64,000 bases of DNA from Bacteroidales bacterium (GTDB lineage Bacteria; Bacteroidota; Bacteroidia; Bacteroidales; VadinHA17), in NCBI GenBank assembly GCA_016928075.1, contig JAFGLJ010000027.1:62001-126000 (forward strand), written 5' to 3'. The notes under the pieces were generated by a model. The model made no database searches, was not told where the DNA came from, and saw only the letters and a program-made list of their open reading frames with translations. Position numbers and translations under genes: made by a program. Shown in pieces: positions 14,835 to 23,742 of the stretch (positions are counted from its first letter, which is position 1; every line of letters begins with the position of its first letter).

Positions 14835-15257
14835 ATGCAAAACGAAGATACGATTGAACATACTGGTACAGTAAAATCAGTAGAAAATAAGCATATAACT
14901 GTAAATATCCTTTCGCATCCTGCCTGTTCAGGATGTATTGCTTCAGGTATATGTGATCTTTCAGGCCGTGCGAACAAGGAAATTATCGCAAGTGCCGGCC
15001 CTGAAGTAAAGGCCGGTGACCAGGTGATTGTAGTAATGAAAAGGTCTATGGGTTTCAAAGCATTGTTCCTGGGATACCTGCTTCCTTTTATTATTGTAAT
15101 GCTGATACTTATTGTTTTAACCTCACTATCCGTATCAGAATCTGTAAGCGGTATTACTGCTTTATTTTCACTTGTTCCCTACTACGTCATAATCTACCTG
15201 AGAAAAGAAAAGGTTGGTAAGAGTTATTCATTTACTATAAAAAAACTAATTAAATGA
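14835..15257 (+). CDS. SoxR-reducing system/RseC family membrane protein
   Basis: A 140-residue RseC-type protein. The N-terminal domain has the cysteine cluster HPACSGCIASGIC (about 32-44), matching the conserved RseC/RsxC-type cysteines. Two transmembrane helices follow at about 75-95 and 100-118. In Bacteroidota this gene regularly precedes the Rnf genes. In E. coli the Rsx (Rnf-like) complex and RseC keep SoxR reduced. No SoxR is seen here, so a role in Rnf assembly or redox sensing is the safer inference. Its TGA overlaps the ATG of rnfB, so it is the first gene of the operon. Confidence 0.88.
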   Translation: MQNEDTIEHTGTVKSVENKHITVNILSHPACSGCIASGICDLSGRANKEIIASAGPEVKAGDQVIVVMKRSMGFKALFLGYLLPFIIVMLILIVLTSLSVSESVSGITALFSLVPYYVIIYLRKEKVGKSYSFTIKKLIK

Positions 15258-16117
15258 GTTCTGTAGTTCTTATAACAATAATCTCTTTAAGCCTTTTAGG
15301 TATTATAGCAGCACTGATATTATTTTTTGTTGCGCAAAAATTCAAGGTTTTTGAAGATCCGCGCATTGATGAAGTTGAGGCAGCCTTGCCCGCCGCCAAT
15401 TGTGGAGGCTGTGGCTATGCAGGTTGCCGCAATTTTGCAGAGGCACTTGTTAAGTCCGAAACTTTTGAAGGCTTGTATTGTCCTGTCGGTGGAAATGAGA
15501 CCATGGCAGAGGTAGCCAGGATCCTTGGCAGGGAAGCACCGGAAGTAGAACCGGAGGTGGCAGTTGTGCGATGTAATGGCACCTATGAAAACAGGAAAAA
15601 AACATCTTACTATGACGGTGCCATGAACTGTACCATCGCCCACAACCTTTATGGGGGCGACACCGACTGTCATTATGGTTGCCTCAGCTTGGGCGAGTGT
15701 GTTGATGCCTGTGATTTTGATGCTATGTATATGGATAGCGAAACAGGGTTGCCTGTTGTGATTGATGAAAAATGTGTTGCCTGCGGGGCATGCGTTAAAG
15801 CTTGTCCACGCAACATAATCGAACTCAGGAAAAAGGCAAAAAAAGACAGGAAGATATATGTTTCATGTGTAAACGAAGATAAAGGCGGACCTGCAAGGAA
15901 AGCCTGCAGCGTTGCATGTATAGGATGCGGCTTATGTGTGAAAGCCTGTCCTTTCGATGCCATTACACTGAACAACAACCTTGCATATATTGATCCCGAG
16001 AAATGTATGCTATGCAGAAAATGTGTTCCTGTGTGTCCTACGAATGCAATAATCGAGGTAAATTTTCCACCCCGGAAAACTCAAGAAAAGGTAGAGGCGG
16101 AAAAAGCGGAGGCATAA
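15254..16117 (+). CDS. rnfB: Rnf electron transport complex subunit B
   Basis: A 287-residue membrane-anchored iron-sulfur protein that takes electrons from ferredoxin. One N-terminal transmembrane helix (about 5-25) is followed by the RnfB-type cluster motif NCGGCGYAGC with a later cysteine (LYCPVG). Several ferredoxin-type motifs come next: CVACGACVKACP, CIGCGLCVKACP and CMLCRKCVPVCP, plus an irregular cysteine-rich stretch (CHYGCLSLGECVDAC). This long, cluster-rich form is the one seen in Bacteroidota and acetogens. The gene overlaps rseC by four bases and is followed by rnfC after 32 bases. Confidence 0.96.
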   Translation: MSSVVLITIISLSLLGIIAALILFFVAQKFKVFEDPRIDEVEAALPAANCGGCGYAGCRNFAEALVKSETFEGLYCPVGGNETMAEVARILGREAPEVEPEVAVVRCNGTYENRKKTSYYDGAMNCTIAHNLYGGDTDCHYGCLSLGECVDACDFDAMYMDSETGLPVVIDEKCVACGACVKACPRNIIELRKKAKKDRKIYVSCVNEDKGGPARKACSVACIGCGLCVKACPFDAITLNNNLAYIDPEKCMLCRKCVPVCPTNAIIEVNFPPRKTQEKVEAEKAEA

Positions 16118-16149
16118 AATAACTGAAGTTGAACCTAAATTAATATAAA

Positions 16150-17484
16150 GTGTTGAAGACATTCGCCAAAGGAGGCGTTCATCCACCTGAAAACAAAATA
16201 TCTGCAGGTATTCCAATCGAAATATTACCGGTACCGGAACAGGTCATTATACCTATTAATCAACACCTCGGAGCTCCTGCTGAGCCGATGGTTGAAAAGG
16301 GTGAGGCAGTTAAGGCAGGCCAGATAATTGCCCGGAATAAAGGTTTTGTATCAGCAAATATTCATTCTCCTGTTTCGGGTAAAGTTCTTAAGGTCGATAA
16401 GGCCTTTGACTCCTCGGGTTACAAGCAGACATGTGTAATAATAAATGTAGAGGGGGACGAATGGATTGATTCTGTAGACCGAAGCGATAAACTTAAAAGG
16501 GATATTAATCTTACGGGTGAAGAAATTATAAAAAAGTGTTCTGAAAATGGTATTGTTGGAATGGGCGGAGCAACATTCCCAACCCATGTAAAGCTTACTA
16601 TACCTCCGGGTAAAAAATGTAACGTACTGATCATAAATGGTGTAGAATGTGAGCCCTATCTCACTTCCGATCATCGCCTATTGCTGGAGAAGACCGGGGA
16701 AATACTCACAGGGACATCCCTGCTTATGAAGGCGCTGGGGGTAGAAAGGGCTATGATAGGTACTGAAAACAACAAGAAAGATGCCATCGAAAAGCTGCAG
16801 AGTATGGTGTCGGAATATAGTGGTATAAGTGTTCATGCCCTTAAAGTTAAATACCCGCAGGGTGCTGAAAAACAACTTATAAAAGCACTTATAAAAAGGG
16901 AAGTGCCTTCAGGAGGCCTTCCTATTGATGTTGGCACAGTCGTTCATAATGTTGGAACTGCTTACGCCGTATACGAAGCCGTACAAAAAAATAAGCCACT
17001 GGTGGAAAGAGTTGTAACAGTAACAGGGAAAGACATGGAAAAGCCTGTAAACCTGCTTACTCGAATAGGAACCCCCGTAAGCAAGCTTATAGAATATGCG
17101 GGAGGTTTACCTGACAGCACCGCCAAAATAATAAACGGGGGACCTATGATGGGTAAAGCACTCGCTTCACTTGATGTACCGGTAACAAAAGGGACATCAG
17201 GAATTATACTTATCAGAAGAAAAGAATCAAGGAGGAGTGAAACAGGGCCCTGTATAAGATGCAGTAAATGCATAGCAGCCTGCCCTATGGGACTGGAGCC
17301 ATACCTTTTGATGACACTCGCTGAGAAAGAGCTTTATGAAAGAGCGGAGAAAGAGAGGATAATGGATTGCATGGAATGCGGATCATGCAGTTACATATGC
17401 CCGGCGCATCGACCTTTACTGGATTACATAAGGCTGGGTAAGTCCAATGTAGGCAGGATAATAAGAGAACGAAAACAAAAATAA
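16150..17484 (+). CDS. rnfC: Rnf electron transport complex subunit C
   Basis: The 444-residue peripheral subunit that binds FMN/NADH and passes electrons between NAD and the complex. The N-terminal TFAKGGVHPPENKISAG segment is typical of RnfC. The NADH/FMN domain has GMGGATFPTHVK and NGVECEPYLTSD. Two C-terminal [4Fe-4S] motifs are CIRCSKCIAACP and CMECGSCSYICP. The start is a GTG at 16150 (or the TTG one codon later); no in-frame ATG lies nearby. The fit of the homologous N-terminus (LKTFAKGG) supports this choice. It sits between rnfB and rnfD, in the usual B-C-D-G-E-A order. Confidence 0.96.
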   Translation: MLKTFAKGGVHPPENKISAGIPIEILPVPEQVIIPINQHLGAPAEPMVEKGEAVKAGQIIARNKGFVSANIHSPVSGKVLKVDKAFDSSGYKQTCVIINVEGDEWIDSVDRSDKLKRDINLTGEEIIKKCSENGIVGMGGATFPTHVKLTIPPGKKCNVLIINGVECEPYLTSDHRLLLEKTGEILTGTSLLMKALGVERAMIGTENNKKDAIEKLQSMVSEYSGISVHALKVKYPQGAEKQLIKALIKREVPSGGLPIDVGTVVHNVGTAYAVYEAVQKNKPLVERVVTVTGKDMEKPVNLLTRIGTPVSKLIEYAGGLPDSTAKIINGGPMMGKALASLDVPVTKGTSGIILIRRKESRRSETGPCIRCSKCIAACPMGLEPYLLMTLAEKELYERAEKERIMDCMECGSCSYICPAHRPLLDYIRLGKSNVGRIIRERKQK

Positions 17485-17510
17485 GCACTCAAAGAAATAG
17501 AATACTAATA

Positions 17511-18521
17511 ATGAATAATCTACTGACAGTATCACCATCTCCGCATGAGTATGGCAAGGAGACAACAAAAAAACTCATGTACGGAGTGGTAATAGCCCTA
17601 GCCCCTGCCCTGCTTGCCACTATCTGGTTTTTCGGCTGGGCAGCAATCCTGATAACTTCAGTTTCCGTAGTGTCCTGTGTTATTTTCGAATCTCTTATCC
17701 AGAAATTTATTTTAAGGAAGAAACCATCTGTAAGTGACGGTTCCGCGGTAGTTACAGGTCTGTTACTCGCTTTTTGCCTTCCCACCAATCTTCCCATAGG
17801 ACTAATTATCCTGGGTGCCCTGGTAGCTATAGGTGTTGGTAAAATGACCTTTGGAGGACTGGGAAATAACCCTTTCAATCCGGCACTCGTCGGAAGAGTC
17901 TTCCTTTTTCTTTCCTTTCCGGTTCAGATGACCACATGGCCTGTCCCAAAAGGATTTAAGACAAGCTTCACTGATGCAATAACAGGTGCAACACCATTAA
18001 GCATACTGAATGAGAACTATGATAAAATTCCTGTACAAAATATTATGACGGACACGGAGCTTGCTATGCCGGGATACCAGCAGCTTTTCTGGGGAAACAT
18101 GGGAGGTTCACTGGGTGAAATAGCTGCTTTTGCCCTTCTTATAGGACTGGCATACCTGCTCATAAGGAAAATCATAACCTGGCATATTCCAGTAAGCATA
18201 CTCCTCACAGTAATCCTGTTCACAGGTATCTTATGGCTTGCCAATAATGAATCAAATGCTGATCCACTTTATCACCTTATGACCGGGGGGTTGCTCCTGG
18301 GAGCTATTTTTATGGCCACCGATTACGTAACCTCACCCATGTCAAAAAAAGGCATGATAATTTACGGCGTGGGAATAGGCATAATAACAGTACTTATCAG
18401 GCGATTCGGAGCGTATCCTGAAGGTGTGCAGTTTGCAATACTTATAATGAATGCATTCACACCACTGATAAATATATATTTAAAACCATCAAGGTTCGGA
18501 GAGGAGGTAAAAAATGTCTAA
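17511..18521 (+). CDS. rnfD: Rnf electron transport complex subunit D
   Basis: A 336-residue integral membrane subunit with about eight to ten hydrophobic helices. It carries a covalent FMN in the known family: the flavinylation motif DAITGATPL is present with the acceptor threonine at about 161. The N-terminal SPSPHEY is typical of RnfD/NqrB. FGGLGNNPFNPALVGR and MATDYVTSPMS are further conserved signatures. Together with RnfG, RnfE and RnfA it forms the ion-translocating membrane core. Its end overlaps the start of rnfG by eight bases. Confidence 0.96.
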   Translation: MNNLLTVSPSPHEYGKETTKKLMYGVVIALAPALLATIWFFGWAAILITSVSVVSCVIFESLIQKFILRKKPSVSDGSAVVTGLLLAFCLPTNLPIGLIILGALVAIGVGKMTFGGLGNNPFNPALVGRVFLFLSFPVQMTTWPVPKGFKTSFTDAITGATPLSILNENYDKIPVQNIMTDTELAMPGYQQLFWGNMGGSLGEIAAFALLIGLAYLLIRKIITWHIPVSILLTVILFTGILWLANNESNADPLYHLMTGGLLLGAIFMATDYVTSPMSKKGMIIYGVGIGIITVLIRRFGAYPEGVQFAILIMNAFTPLINIYLKPSRFGEEVKNV

Positions 18522-19095
18522 GAAAGAATCAAACCTTAAAAACATGTTTATTGCTCTGCTGGTGATCACTTTTATCGCTTCAGCATCCCTTGGTGGCATT
18601 TATGAACTGACAAAGGAACCTATAGCAGCAGCAAAGCTTGAAAAGAAAAATAGCGCTATAAGGCAGGTTATTCCTGAATTTGACAATAGCCCCACTGATG
18701 ATATTTATAAGAAAGCTGTAAATGGTGATACACTTTATTTTTACCCTGGAACAAAAGGTGGTGAACCGGTAGGAACAGCCGTTGAAACGTTCTCAAATTT
18801 AGGGTTCTCAGGGGAAATTAAGATAATGGTTGGCTTCCTGCCCGATGGTACAATAAATGATGTTGCTGTCCTTGAACATGCAGAGACACCAGGGCTGGGT
18901 GATAAAATGGAAAGGAAGAAATCAGACTGGAGTTTGCAGTTCCAGGGGAAGAACCCTGAGTCATTCCGCCTGTCTGTTAAGAAGGACGGCGGCGATGTTG
19001 ATGCCATTACAGCCTCAACAATCAGTTCAAGAGCTTTCTGCGATGCTGTGGAAAGAGCATATGAAGCTTTTAGAAGTATAAATCAGAACAAGTAA
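18514..19095 (+). CDS. rnfG: Rnf electron transport complex subunit G
   Basis: A 193-residue protein with one N-terminal transmembrane helix (about 11-31) and an extracytoplasmic FMN-binding domain. The flavinylation site is in VDAITASTISSRA, with the predicted acceptor threonine at about 169. Most RnfG proteins have TGAT here; this one has TAST, which still keeps the threonine. HAETPGLGDKM is the second family signature. A maturation enzyme (ApbE) would be needed and is not in the window. It overlaps rnfD by eight bases and precedes rnfE by 18 bases. Confidence 0.95.
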   Translation: MSKKESNLKNMFIALLVITFIASASLGGIYELTKEPIAAAKLEKKNSAIRQVIPEFDNSPTDDIYKKAVNGDTLYFYPGTKGGEPVGTAVETFSNLGFSGEIKIMVGFLPDGTINDVAVLEHAETPGLGDKMERKKSDWSLQFQGKNPESFRLSVKKDGGDVDAITASTISSRAFCDAVERAYEAFRSINQNK

Positions 19096-19113
19096 AAAAG
19101 CTAATACGAAGAT

Positions 19114-19701
19114 ATGAACCAACTTAAGAATTTCACCAAAGGCTTTATAAAGGAAAACCCGGTATTTGCTCTCTTCCTCGGCCTGTGCCCAACACTTGGT
19201 GTAACCACTACCGCCATAAATGGTATGGGCATGGGCCTGGCAACCACATTTGTCCTGTTGATGTCAAATGTCGTAGTTTCCCTTATTAAAAACTTTATAC
19301 CTGATAAAGTCAGGATACCTTCCTTTATAGTTATTATAGCGTCTTTTGTAACTATTGTTGAACTTATAATGCAGGCGTACCTCCCTGCACTATTTGAAGC
19401 ACTTGGCCTTTTTATCCCGCTTATAGTTGTGAACTGTATTGTGCTGGGACGCGCCGAGGCTTTTGCATCAAAGAACACACTGCTGTCATCTGCAATAGAC
19501 GGACTGGGCATGGGATTGGGATTTACCTTTGCACTTACCCTCCTGGGGTCGGTTAGGGAAATACTTGGTTCAGGATCCATATTCGGACTGAAATTTATAG
19601 GCGGGGAAGGCATACTTATATTCATATTATCACCGGGAGCGTTCATTGCGCTGGGTTACCTCATAGTGATTGTTAACAAGCTAAGTAAGAAAGGGGCATA
19701 A
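19114..19701 (+). CDS. rnfE: Rnf electron transport complex subunit E
   Basis: A 195-residue integral membrane protein with about six helices. The signature half-motif [12 protein letters not shown] near residues 26-37 and [13 protein letters not shown] mark the RnfE/NqrD family. These subunits form the membrane iron-sulfur site that pairs with RnfA by inverted pseudo-symmetry. It is separated from rnfA by one base, so the two are certainly cotranscribed. The DIKEL-like loop of other family members is replaced here by a [20 protein letters not shown] stretch, which is normal for RnfE. Confidence 0.95.
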
Positions 19702-19702
19702 G

Positions 19703-20275
19703 ATGGAATATATAATAATAATCATATCTGCAATCTTTGTAAATAATATTGTTCTCAGCAAGTTCCTGGGTATTTGCCCCTTCATTGGGGTTTCAGCAAA
19801 AATTGAAACAGCCATAGGGATGTCGGGAGCAGTCTTATTTGTAATGACCATAGCCACACTGGTAACTTACCTGATTCAGAATTATATACTAATCCCTTTT
19901 GGCATAGTATACATGCAGACCATTACCTTTATCCTGGTTATTGCATCATTGGTTCAGCTGGTGGAGATTATACTTAAGAAAGTAAGCCCTACATTATACC
20001 AGGCTCTTGGTATATTCCTTCCGCTTATTACTACTAACTGTGCAGTCCTGGGAGTAGCTATAATGGCGGGTCAGCAGGACCTCAACCTCATGGAAAGTAT
20101 CGTTTTCGCTATCGCGAATTCAATAGGTTTTGGCCTTGCACTTATACTCTTCGCAGGTTTGCGTGAGCACCTCGAACTGGCAGATGTACCGACACCCATG
20201 AGAGGTGTTCCAATAGCTTTTGTTGTTGCAGGGCTACTGGCCATGGCTTTTATGGGATTTGCAGGTATAGTGTAA
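19703..20275 (+). CDS. rnfA: Rnf electron transport complex subunit A
   Basis: A 190-residue, six-helix membrane protein, last gene of the operon. The opening helix carries [20 protein letters not shown], the RnfA/NqrE hallmark with a cluster-ligating cysteine, and the mirrored [12 protein letters not shown] lies in the second half. Paired with RnfE it makes the core ion- and electron-conducting unit. The gene ends eight bases from the stop of the convergent large oxidoreductase fusion gene, with no obvious terminator between them. Confidence 0.96.
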
Positions 20276-20283
20276 AAGTGACT

Positions 20284-23200
20284 TTACTTAAAAGCTTTTT
20301 CCAGTAATCCGTCACCATCAATTTTGAGCCGGTCAAAATAATCAGGTACCCGTTTGCCTGTCAGTTTATCCACATACAATTTAGCGAGGTATTGTCCTAA
20401 CATAAAACCCTGCCCCCGCAGACCTATGAACAAACCGTGATCAGTATCGATGAGCATCCTCGGCTCAACATAATAACCTGCCCATATAGCCTGAAATCCA
20501 ACCGATGATAAGCATGGTACCCAATCAACGAACACTTCCGTAACAATCTCAAGAAAATCCTGGGAATTGATCTTCAGGTTTTTTCCTGTTTCTTCCGGTT
20601 CAATCATAGGTGAAGCGCACCCAATTATCTGCCCCGTTTCAGCTAACTGCTGACCATAAACAGCTGTGAATCCTTTATATTTTCTTCGATCGATTAACAT
20701 TGACAGTGGACTTCCATTGATGCCCAGCATAGGTAAGCGACGGGTAATAAAGGCCTGGTGTTTAACAGGATAAATGCCCGTTTCAAGCCCTAATCTGGAT
20801 GCGAATTTCGCACCTTCGGGACCAAGGGCATTAATGAACACCTCGGTTTGATATTCAATGTACTCATTATTATGATCACGGACAATTACATTATAAGCCT
20901 TTCCCGAAGTATTTATATCTATTAATTCACAATCTTCAAGTATTGTACCTCCATGTTCAATGCCTATATTTCTTATAAGATCAATCACTCTGCCAGGTGT
21001 AGCCTGCCAGCAATTGTTGGTAATAAGTGCTGCCTTATATTTATTCAACGAAGGGTTGAAATGATCCGACACTTCCTTCCGGAAATCTTTGGAATCAATC
21101 ATCCTTGCGTCCGACCAGGCAATAGAAGCCTCCAGGTCTCTGTATATCTGTTCATCGTGTGCAAAAGTAACATACTTGATTGGAAGGAAATCAATATTCT
21201 GAACATCCTGTAATTCTCTGAATATCTGTAAATTATTATTTGCAATATCGGAAAGCTCGGGCAGACTGAAGTTTGGACGGCCGGCAGCAATGTTTCTCCA
21301 TGATGAGCCGCGACCATAATTAATCATTAAGGGTTTAAGACCTGCTTCTGCCATATATCTGAATAAAGCGCTACCACCTATACCGCCTCCGGCAATAAAG
21401 GACTGTGTATGGATTATTTTACGGCTCTTGTCATTCAGGTGGGTGATTACGTTTTCATGAGCCTTCCTGGGAAGAAGTTCACCCAATACTATCTGATTAG
21501 AAAGCGGACCACGAGGTGTGGCATCGCCAACCATTGAAATACCGTATTTAGGTAAGACAGTCTTTAATCGCTTAATACATCGTTTCCCCCGGCAGGCACC
21601 CATTCCCAATCTCGTGGTATGTTTTATCTCATCAACTGAAATAAATTTCCTTGGGCCGATAATATCAAGTATTTCATTCAGTTTTACATCATCACAATGA
21701 CATATATACTGATCTCCTTCATATTTATTCACTGTATCCTCATAACTGATCTCATCCGGATAAATTTCCTTGATAATAAAACCTCTCACCTCGATTAGCT
21801 CGTCACCACTTATGTCAAGTGCTTTAACCCTGGCAATATTTGTTTTATTTTCTTTCCTGAGCACTTTTTCAATAATTCCCTCCCCCAGTTTCTGCCCCTG
21901 ATTGTTTACCAGGTAAACTTCAGAATCTTCTGCAACGTTGTATTCAACAGGCAGGAACAACCAGTTCTTTTTGAGATTATACCCAAAAATGGCCAGTCCG
22001 GGACACTGGTAAACGCATTCCATACAACCTATACATTTATCGAAATCTATTTCCGGAACAGTGCTTGTGGATGATTTGGTAATGGCATTGTGAGGGCAGG
22101 CAAAAGCACAGGGATTACATGCAAAACCATAAAGACAGTCTATTAATACGAAAGGTTTTCCCCATATTCTGTCTTTTGAGGGCTTGAAAGGATCATCTAT
22201 GATCTTAACCGGTTCCTGCTGGGAATCAATATATTCTTTGGATATTTTCAAATACTGTTTATAATCATATCTTACTCCCATTTCATCAATAATTTCATAA
22301 GCTACCTGTTTCCCCCTGAGTACTGCACTTGTTCCCTCTCCTATCCTGATTGCATCGCCTGCACCATGACAGTTTCTACCAAAAACTTCTCTACCCTTTA
22401 TAAGCAAAGCGTCATCAGAAATAAGGCCCGTACAAATGTTAATAGCATCAATTCCATTAATCACTTTTTCTGTTCCGGGCACAGGTTCAAAATTCTCAGC
22501 ATCTGCAATTACTGCTCCCGTAATACCGTCGTAATTCTCATTGGGTATTGCCTTAACAAGGATTTTAGAAGTCAGAACGGGAATCCCCAGGCGTCTTACC
22601 CTGTTAGCCTGAACGGGAAATCCTCCTTCGCAGGGCATTGCTTCAATAATTGCTTTTACTTTTGCCCCGGCCTGTATTAACTGGTAAGAGGTAAGGTAGC
22701 CAATATTTCCTGCTCCAACAGTCAGCACATTTTTACCCAGCAAGGTAAATTCCTGGTTCATCATTTTCTGTACAACCGCTGCTGTATATACCCCGGGCAC
22801 ATCATCGTTCTCAAAAGGAGGCATAAAGGGCACTGCCCCTGTAGCAACAACCAGGTAATTTGTATCGACGTAATATATCTCTTCCGAATTAATATTTTTA
22901 ACAGCCAGTCTTTTACCTTCAAGTATATCCCAGACTGTAGATTCAAGAAATATACCTTTTTGATTTTCACCTGCCAGAGATTTTGCAATATCAAAACCTC
23001 TCATGCCTCCAAATTTCTTCTCTTTTTCAAAAAAGAAAAACTGGTGTGTCTGCATTAGGAACTGCCCGCCTATATGATCATTATTATCTATTACTACATT
23101 GTCAATTCCGTGCATATTCAATATTTCCCTGGCTGCAAGACCTGCCGGTCCCGCACCGATAATAGCCACGTCAGTTTTATAAACATTCAATGGCTTATCG

Positions 23201-23517
23201 GTTTCTATTTTTTGTGACCCCGGTTTATAATCCCGGGGGATTGTTTTCACCTCCCTGACGCCATTCACTCGTGTGATACATATTCTCCTTATTACTCCAT
23301 CAACTAGCATTTCGCAGGCGCCACATTTCCCTATACCGCATTCAAGACTGCGGTTCCTGTTTTCGAGGCTGTGACTATGCACCGGATAGCCTGCCTGGTG
23401 AAGGGCTGCGGCAATAGTGAAGTCTTTCTCCGCAGTAATGGTTTTATCGTTGAATTTAAAACTTGTCTTTTGTTTTTCAGGAACAACCAGTATTGGATGA
23501 GAAGTTATTTTCTGCAT
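20284..23517 (-). CDS. Giant multi-cofactor dehydrogenase: [2Fe-2S]-FAD-2x[4Fe-4S]-BFD-DAO fusion
   Basis: About 1077 residues from the ATG at 23517; a TTG at 23538 would add seven. In order: an N-terminal [2Fe-2S] domain (C60, C65, C68, C80), as in sarcosine oxidase alpha or HcnA; an FAD/NAD-type reductase (GAGPAG 121-126, second Rossmann GAGNIG 268-273), as in HcnB; two [4Fe-4S] motifs (C461/467/470/474 and C495/498/501/505); a BFD-like [2Fe-2S] site (C606, C608, C642, C647); and a C-terminal DAO-type FAD domain (GGGIGG 710-715), as in HcnC or sarcosine oxidase beta. In known dye-linked proline, hydroxyproline, octopine and glycine (HCN-forming) dehydrogenases these are separate subunits. 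It probably oxidises an amino or imino acid and passes electrons to a carrier. Substrate and acceptor are unknown. Confidence 0.85.
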   Translation of the reverse strand: MQKITSHPILVVPEKQKTSFKFNDKTITAEKDFTIAAALHQAGYPVHSHSLENRNRSLECGIGKCGACEMLVDGVIRRICITRVNGVREVKTIPRDYKPGSQKIETDKPLNVYKTDVAIIGAGPAGLAAREILNMHGIDNVVIDNNDHIGGQFLMQTHQFFFFEKEKKFGGMRGFDIAKSLAGENQKGIFLESTVWDILEGKRLAVKNINSEEIYYVDTNYLVVATGAVPFMPPFENDDVPGVYTAAVVQKMMNQEFTLLGKNVLTVGAGNIGYLTSYQLIQAGAKVKAIIEAMPCEGGFPVQANRVRRLGIPVLTSKILVKAIPNENYDGITGAVIADAENFEPVPGTEKVINGIDAINICTGLISDDALLIKGREVFGRNCHGAGDAIRIGEGTSAVLRGKQVAYEIIDEMGVRYDYKQYLKISKEYIDSQQEPVKIIDDPFKPSKDRIWGKPFVLIDCLYGFACNPCAFACPHNAITKSSTSTVPEIDFDKCIGCMECVYQCPGLAIFGYNLKKNWLFLPVEYNVAEDSEVYLVNNQGQKLGEGIIEKVLRKENKTNIARVKALDISGDELIEVRGFIIKEIYPDEISYEDTVNKYEGDQYICHCDDVKLNEILDIIGPRKFISVDEIKHTTRLGMGACRGKRCIKRLKTVLPKYGISMVGDATPRGPLSNQIVLGELLPRKAHENVITHLNDKSRKIIHTQSFIAGGGIGGSALFRYMAEAGLKPLMINYGRGSSWRNIAAGRPNFSLPELSDIANNNLQIFRELQDVQNIDFLPIKYVTFAHDEQIYRDLEASIAWSDARMIDSKDFRKEVSDHFNPSLNKYKAALITNNCWQATPGRVIDLIRNIGIEHGGTILEDCELIDINTSGKAYNVIVRDHNNEYIEYQTEVFINALGPEGAKFASRLGLETGIYPVKHQAFITRRLPMLGINGSPLSMLIDRRKYKGFTAVYGQQLAETGQIIGCASPMIEPEETGKNLKINSQDFLEIVTEVFVDWVPCLSSVGFQAIWAGYYVEPRMLIDTDHGLFIGLRGQGFMLGQYLAKLYVDKLTGKRVPDYFDRLKIDGDGLLEKAFK

Positions 23518-23742
23518 ATCAGGACATATTAATTTCAATTAATGACCTGGTGAAAATAATAACAGAATAACAAGAAATTACTGATATCTGTCATTAAGTG
23601 AACTTACCCGGTCAATGGCAGGTTACCGGTTAAGTACGGACTATTGATCATTTAGGATCTTTTATCAGCCTAAATTGTATATTATAAATAAAATAGCTGT
23701 ACGAGAAGCTGGCAGTTTAGAAAAGTGATAAGTCAGCATTTT
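23518..23742. other. Intergenic region with 11-bp imperfect inverted repeat
   Basis: This 225-base gap separates zupT from the downstream oxidoreductase fusion gene, both on the minus strand. It contains ACTTACCCGGT (23602-23612) and ACCGGTTAAGT (23625-23635), an inverted repeat with 10 of 11 positions pairing and a 12-base spacer. It lacks a T-run on either side, so an operator or leader hairpin is more likely than a terminator. I see no other feature here and no small gene. Confidence 0.35.

Follow-up and report, generated by a model that had tools for sequence, protein, structure and literature searches.

A single gene on the minus strand of a 64,000-nucleotide stretch from a Bacteroidales bacterium (contig JAFGLJ010000027.1, positions 62,001 to 126,000; here called the window) encodes a protein in which the modules of multi-subunit amine dehydrogenases are joined in one chain. 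Analysis of this fused protein, its relatives and their genomes suggests that it is, on balance, probably a single-chain imino-acid:acceptor oxidoreductase, predicted to work like the archaeal heteromeric L-proline dehydrogenase of PDH1 type. Its co-occurrence with pyrroline-5-carboxylate (P5C) dehydrogenase (P5CDH) and its adjacency to proline-catabolic genes suggest that the substrate would be L-proline, or 4-hydroxy-L-proline.

Domain searches matched Pfam families in the order Fer2_4, Pyr_redox_2, Fer4-type, Fer2_BFD and DAO, each above its curated cut-off. The gene and its parts are as follows, with residues counted from the ATG at 23517.

20284..23517, minus strand: whole gene, a single open frame of 1077 aa from ATG
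23248..23472, minus strand: N-terminal plant-type [2Fe-2S] domain, Fer2_4 (residues 16-90; Cys 60, 65, 68 and 80; Pfam E 2.5e-9)
22228..23190, minus strand: FAD/NAD(P) reductase-like module (residues ~110-430; Pyr_redox_2 E 1.3e-19), with two glycine-rich nucleotide sites at residues 121-126 and 268-273, and Glu292
21988..22137, minus strand: ferredoxin-like domain with two [4Fe-4S] sites (residues 461-510; Fer4 families)
21763..21987, minus strand: small beta-barrel (residues ~511-585; AlphaFold models)
21553..21708, minus strand: BFD-type [2Fe-2S] domain (residues 604-655; Fer2_BFD E 4.6e-8)
20287..21420, minus strand: DAO-type FAD catalytic domain (residues 700-1077; DAO E 3.1e-25)

Conservation was assessed in an alignment of 110 rows, representing 105 different sequences. 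The cysteine quartets 60/65/68/80, 461/467/470/474, 495/498/501/505 and 606/608/642/647 were present in 110/110 rows, save for C80 (109/110). The GxGxxG sites at residues 121-126 and 710-715 and the third glycine-rich site at 268-273 were all invariant, as were Arg747, His920, Trp1012, Tyr1016 and Met1039 of the DAO domain. The protein is thus predicted to hold four Fe-S sites and two FADs, six in all, and the Pfam matches and site conservation bear out the single-chain, six-redox-site domain reading of an earlier note made from the DNA alone. Three further cysteines outside the Fe-S sites, 362, 836 and 967 (22432-22434, 21010-21012 and 20617-20619), were also invariant in 110/110 rows; two of them lie in the DAO domain. 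The AlphaFold model of the fused protein had a mean pLDDT of 85.9 and a pTM of 0.84. Comparison of the beta-barrel with the PDB gave middling matches, the best with Z 6.6 over 62 residues, so its fold was left unnamed.

Profile and structure searches were performed with alignments built from 45, 27 and 27 sequences out of 111. Among solved structures, the two closest by profile were the subunits of PDH1, alpha (E 6.5e-16) and beta (E 5.9e-15). When the DAO part was searched alone, PDH1 beta was again first (E 3.7e-16), with dimethylglycine dehydrogenase (DMGDH) next at 3.3e-8. Structurally, too, this chain (1y56_B) came first for the DAO part, with 351 residues superposed at 2.4 angstrom and Z 38.9; sarcosine oxidase beta (Z 37.8), DMGDH (37.1) and glycine oxidase (36.0) came close behind. 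For the reductase-like module, the nearest solved chains were PDH1 alpha (1y56_A) and sarcosine oxidase alpha (2gag_A, 1vrq_A); target-normalised TM-scores for the alpha-like part were 0.75 for PDH1 alpha and 0.41 for sarcosine oxidase alpha. Among the Pfam matches listed (25 of 30 at E <= 1), neither PF01619, the family of monofunctional proline dehydrogenase (PRODH), nor the folate-binding GCV_T domain was found.

These data agree with the likeness to Hcn, sarcosine, proline and opine dehydrogenases that the earlier note had drawn. The note had also spoken of an unknown amino acid, which the resemblance to PDH1 beta and the genomic evidence below narrow to proline or a close relative. By sequence the catalytic half is nearest to PDH1 beta, yet the best structural match is near-tied with sarcosine oxidase beta, so the substrate is still a prediction.

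A dehydrogenase of another secondary amine, such as sarcosine, dimethylglycine, an N-methylated amino acid (e.g. N-methylproline) or an opine, would leave only an indirect link to the proline genes. The structural closeness of sarcosine oxidase beta and DMGDH would fit such an enzyme, and the best NCBIfam match of the reductase module is the sarcosine oxidase alpha family. At three loci (L053, L064 and L065), a cluster resembling corrinoid-protein methyl transfer, as judged by eye, lies a few genes from the fused gene. However, PDH1 beta leads the matches of the DAO part in both sequence and structure, the score against TIGR01372 (soxA) is 61.9 bits, below the curated cut-off of 1164, and the lack of GCV_T among the listed matches points the same way. 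Together with the PRODH and P5CDH associations described below, these observations make a different secondary amine an unlikely substrate.

The fused protein was compared with known systems module by module. It shares with PDH1 (PDB 1y56, from P. horikoshii) a reductase-like alpha part with a BFD domain and a DAO-type beta part. It differs in being one chain where PDH1 has separate alpha and beta subunits, in the ferredoxin-like domain and beta-barrel inserted ahead of the BFD domain, and in retaining the N-terminal [2Fe-2S] cysteines that are missing from the 1y56 alpha alignment. Watanabe et al. (PMC4575208) describe an Arg-X-Trp motif of the beta part as putatively binding FMN, and we equate it, tentatively and by alignment, with the R-T-W of 1y56 beta. 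At this position the fused protein has [AS]-x-W: the residue aligned to Arg was Ala in 106/110 rows and Ser in 4/110. FMN may therefore be absent from the fused protein, with the Fe-S chain possibly in its place. Of the features that characterize the PDH1 type, the fused protein has the DAO-type catalytic part and an alpha part with an FAD site and BFD-like [2Fe-2S] domain; it has neither the Arg-X-Trp motif nor a division into separate subunits. The protein is consequently not classed as a PDH1-type member, and its PDH1-like activity is a prediction only.

The opine dehydrogenase OdhABC, D-hydroxyproline dehydrogenase and HCN synthase are built from the same kinds of module, a [2Fe-2S] gamma, an FAD/[2Fe-2S] alpha and a DAO beta, which are separate subunits according to PMC4575208, as the earlier note had stated. 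That text reports FAD, FMN and [2Fe-2S] in the purified opine enzyme and, in the parts consulted, makes no mention of a 4Fe-4S domain, whereas the fused protein has one with two [4Fe-4S] sites. HCN synthase, HcnABC, has three separate subunits against the single chain here. Heterotetrameric sarcosine oxidase (PDB 2gag, 1vrq, 3ad7) is structurally close in its alpha reductase-like module and DAO beta; its subunits are likewise separate, and the fused protein falls far under the soxA cut-off and has no folate domain among the matches listed. By its predicted domains, the fused protein is a single-chain variant in the PDH/Odh/Hcn/sarcosine-oxidase group. Monofunctional PRODH possibly carries out the same reaction with an unrelated domain, and the two families are encoded at different loci.

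The distribution of the fusion was examined at three levels. In representative genomes, the scan yielded at least 577 related stretches, and the best 80 were retained; by record title, all of these 80 were from Bacteroidota except two (a Phycisphaerae assembly and an 'uncultured bacterium'). Within the window's order, 247 genomes were searched at E <= 1e-50; matches were obtained in 102, and in 100 of these the match was the fused protein. The remaining two (G435 and G454) were excluded, their match being another protein, of ~1290 aa, with 29-30% identity over residues 9-694. The earlier note had proposed counting genomes with the fusion: it lies in a single contig piece in 97/247, of which 95 have no internal stop, and three further genomes carry it split in two pieces on different contigs. 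No second full copy was found in any of the 247 genomes at this threshold. In a phylum-wide draw of 296 genomes, which held few of the window's order (at least 3), the single match was the window's own genome; the fused gene was thus not met beyond its order in this sample. It is common in this order and no single-genome curiosity.

The unbroken frame in these genomes also answers the concern, raised in the earlier note, that a frame error might have joined adjacent genes. The open reading frame in the window (20284-23538, minus strand) spans 1084 codons and begins at TTG, and the matches of the 80 retained relatives begin at residue 1-8 of the 1084-aa query, save one at 23, and end at 1037-1084. 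As the alignment with most relatives begins near residue 8, translation more probably starts at the ATG at 23517 than at the TTG at 23538, giving the 1077-aa product; both the intact frame and the start that the note had given agree with the relatives. An assembly artefact fusing neighbouring genes would have to recur as the identical single frame in 97/247 genomes, the 80 relatives and an annotated Parabacteroides distasonis record. No point in its support was found; frame error was ruled out, and we regard the chance of such an artefact as negligible.

The P. distasonis copy, WP_048927274.1, is full-length, 62.9% identical and annotated 'FAD-dependent oxidoreductase', a generic name, in the one annotated record met. 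It lies (L122:12001-15237) on a 218-kb circular record labelled plasmid, alongside ppdK and rlmD; since it carries such genes, the record may be chromosomal rather than a plasmid. Another named strain, Perlabentimonas gracilis M08_MB, also carries the fused gene. The contig with a 72% identical copy (L013:4653-7880) is binned with a Phycisphaerae metagenome-assembled genome, which reflects either horizontal transfer or mis-binning. Among the matches listed from one open-access library, no title or abstract opening dealt with this fusion, which is no proof of its absence from print.

To relate the fused gene to proline catabolism, P5CDH was counted as TIGR01236 at E <= 1e-90, a threshold that retained 151 of 164 matching genomes. 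P5CDH was present in 86/100 genomes with the fused gene and in 65/147 without it (odds ratio 7.7, p 1.2e-11). In the same genomes, the known partnership of PRODH with P5CDH gave an odds ratio of 6.9. These genome tables were uncorrected for kinship; counted instead by taxonomic-family label, over 120 families (f1, f2 and f52-f169, assumed complete for the draw), P5CDH was found in 53/60 with the fused gene and 34/60 without (p 1.8e-4). The association was seen both where PRODH was present (65/68 vs 52/81) and where it was absent (21/32 vs 13/66). PRODH itself was weakly associated with the fused gene (68/100 vs 81/147, p 0.047). Because both coexist in 68/100 genomes, the fused gene is no simple replacement for PRODH, and the two enzymes likely differ in conditions, carriers or substrates. 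In 21 genomes, the fused gene and P5CDH occurred with no PRODH match. Ornithine aminotransferase is the other usual source of P5C, and three of these 21 genomes (G318, G365 and G431, with G318 and G431 of the same genus) lacked it as well.

The coexistence of PRODH with the fused gene, sometimes adjacent to it, could also mean that the fused enzyme is specific for trans-4-hydroxy-L-proline and that PRODH handles proline, with a shared P5C dehydrogenase downstream. P5CDH can accept the products of both proline and 4-hydroxyproline oxidation. The 21 genomes with the fused gene and P5CDH and no PRODH match argue the other way, as does the rarity of PF05544 (proline racemase/hydroxyproline epimerase), needed for the D-hydroxyproline route and detected in 3/46 genomes checked (45 chosen genomes that lacked PRODH, plus the window's own). 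The D-hydroxyproline route via the epimerase is accordingly unlikely where checked, and strict specificity for hydroxyproline seems to us quite improbable.

Gene neighbourhoods were compared at 111 loci, a set in which the window is counted together with its own copy, L001, and many loci are short. PRODH or P5CDH was encoded within 4.5 kb of the fused gene in 18/111. The arrangements were a short PRODH convergent downstream (n = 10), a short PRODH divergent upstream (n = 2), a distinct long PRODH divergent upstream (n = 2) and P5CDH co-directional upstream (n = 4). These four arrangements occupied four different well-supported parts of the fused-protein tree, which was made by a quick method with a midpoint root; the groups were tested against each other only, and rows without such neighbours are interspersed. 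As a control, the gene families lying within 1 kb of the fused gene were counted across 109 loci. Of the 17 families present at three loci or more, four recurred in more than one arrangement, PRODH being the most frequent of the four (12 loci). No operon was conserved across the fused-gene family, and neighbours tracked local synteny. The neighbour termed cluster 1 (21 loci, often followed by genes that look by eye like PlsX and FabH) was read as such background synteny.

Several observations nevertheless weigh against a proline dehydrogenase of PDH1 kind. In addition to the near-tie of sarcosine oxidase beta in structure, the Foldseek E-value for the alpha-like part was slightly better for sarcosine oxidase alpha (1vrq_A) than for PDH1 alpha. 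Identity is 19%, from which specificity cannot be predicted. R-x-W is replaced throughout the 110 rows, and PDH1 beta has a 'TPDxxPxIG'-like stretch that is shorter in the fused protein. When the 13 genomes with weaker P5CDH matches (above E 1e-90, several with proteins of PutA length; 0/13 with the fused gene and 10/13 with PRODH) are included, the contrast shrinks to 86/100 vs 78/147, with 65/68 vs 62/81 where PRODH is present and 21/32 vs 16/66 where it is absent. The same direction is indicated by the 68/100 genomes that already hold PRODH and by the 11/100 with the fused gene and neither PRODH nor P5CDH. Ornithine aminotransferase was present in 39/45 genomes checked, so that finding P5CDH without PRODH does not prove that an unseen proline dehydrogenase exists; two genomes, G402 and G389 (79% complete), have P5CDH but lack PRODH, ornithine aminotransferase and the fused gene. 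At the remaining 93/111 loci, many of them short, no proline gene was nearby. All four arrangements fall within one 74-row group of the tree, and a single old PRODH/P5CDH adjacency, reshuffled and often lost, could have given rise to them, though the adjoining genes differ. Families other than PRODH also recurred in more than one arrangement: superoxide dismutase-like (6 loci), a repeat protein (4) and DoxX-like (3), all named by eye.

For the favoured PDH1-like enzyme, we infer the substrate, electron-transfer order, direction and acceptor as follows. At the C-terminal DAO flavin, L-proline would be oxidised to pyrroline-5-carboxylate; if 4-hydroxy-L-proline is the substrate, the product would be the 3-hydroxy form. 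Electrons would leave singly, from the DAO flavin to the BFD [2Fe-2S], through the two [4Fe-4S] sites to the flavin of the reductase-like module, and from there via the N-terminal [2Fe-2S] to an external soluble or membrane carrier. A separately encoded P5C dehydrogenase would convert the product to glutamate. The channelling of electrons to a carrier through the single chain, as the earlier note proposed, is plausible. The proline/P5C couple lies near -0.12 V, and direct reduction of NAD+ or ferredoxin would therefore be uphill. A quinone or other higher-potential carrier is expected as acceptor, unless two reactions are coupled.

If this prediction is right, many Bacteroidales, the P. distasonis record included, hold a proline dehydrogenase that is unrelated to PRODH and annotated as 'FAD-dependent oxidoreductase'. 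Proline catabolism may then be overlooked in the 21/247 genomes with the gene and P5CDH and no PRODH match. A complete electron path in one chain would also be easier to study than that of the multi-subunit relatives.

Coupling of two reactions could in principle run the enzyme in a reductive or bifurcating direction, in which NADH would reduce the imine at the DAO site and drive ferredoxin reduction via the [4Fe-4S] sites, the ferredoxin serving Rnf. A chain that combines two flavins and an NAD-like site with two [4Fe-4S] sites would suit such a role, and Rnf-like genes are convergent with the fused gene in the window and in L002. A relative system, described below, has NuoEF and FlpD-like parts. 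However, the association with P5C dehydrogenase points to oxidation, and Rnf-like neighbours were met at two places only, the window and the closely related L002. We consider this direction very improbable, and hold equally doubtful the fuller proposal of a one-polypeptide bifurcating or ferredoxin-linked imino-acid oxidoreductase that couples proline/P5C interconversion to ferredoxin and, through Rnf, to an ion gradient. Were it true, proline would serve anaerobic Bacteroidales as a soluble redox couple that conserves energy.

The Rnf-type operon in the window comprises six genes (15254-20275, named by eye); 8 bases separate its stop end from that of the fused gene, and L002 shows the same Rnf-like gene order. 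At L109, genes that look by eye like the Nqr type follow the fused gene. In two genomes of the order (L096:2373-9837 and L097:2293-9754), a NuoE-NuoF fusion, a ~1290 aa protein and a separate DAO protein are encoded in a row. At L096, a domain search of the ~1290 aa protein found Fer2, 4Fe-4S, FlpD, reductase and BFD domains; among solved chains, the DAO protein of this locus matched PDH1 beta best (E 2.1e-44). These rows possibly encode an NAD-linked relative complex. Beside the fused gene, a superoxide dismutase-like gene was seen at L053, L064, L048 and L114, and a nitroreductase-like gene at L053, L064 and L114, both named by eye.

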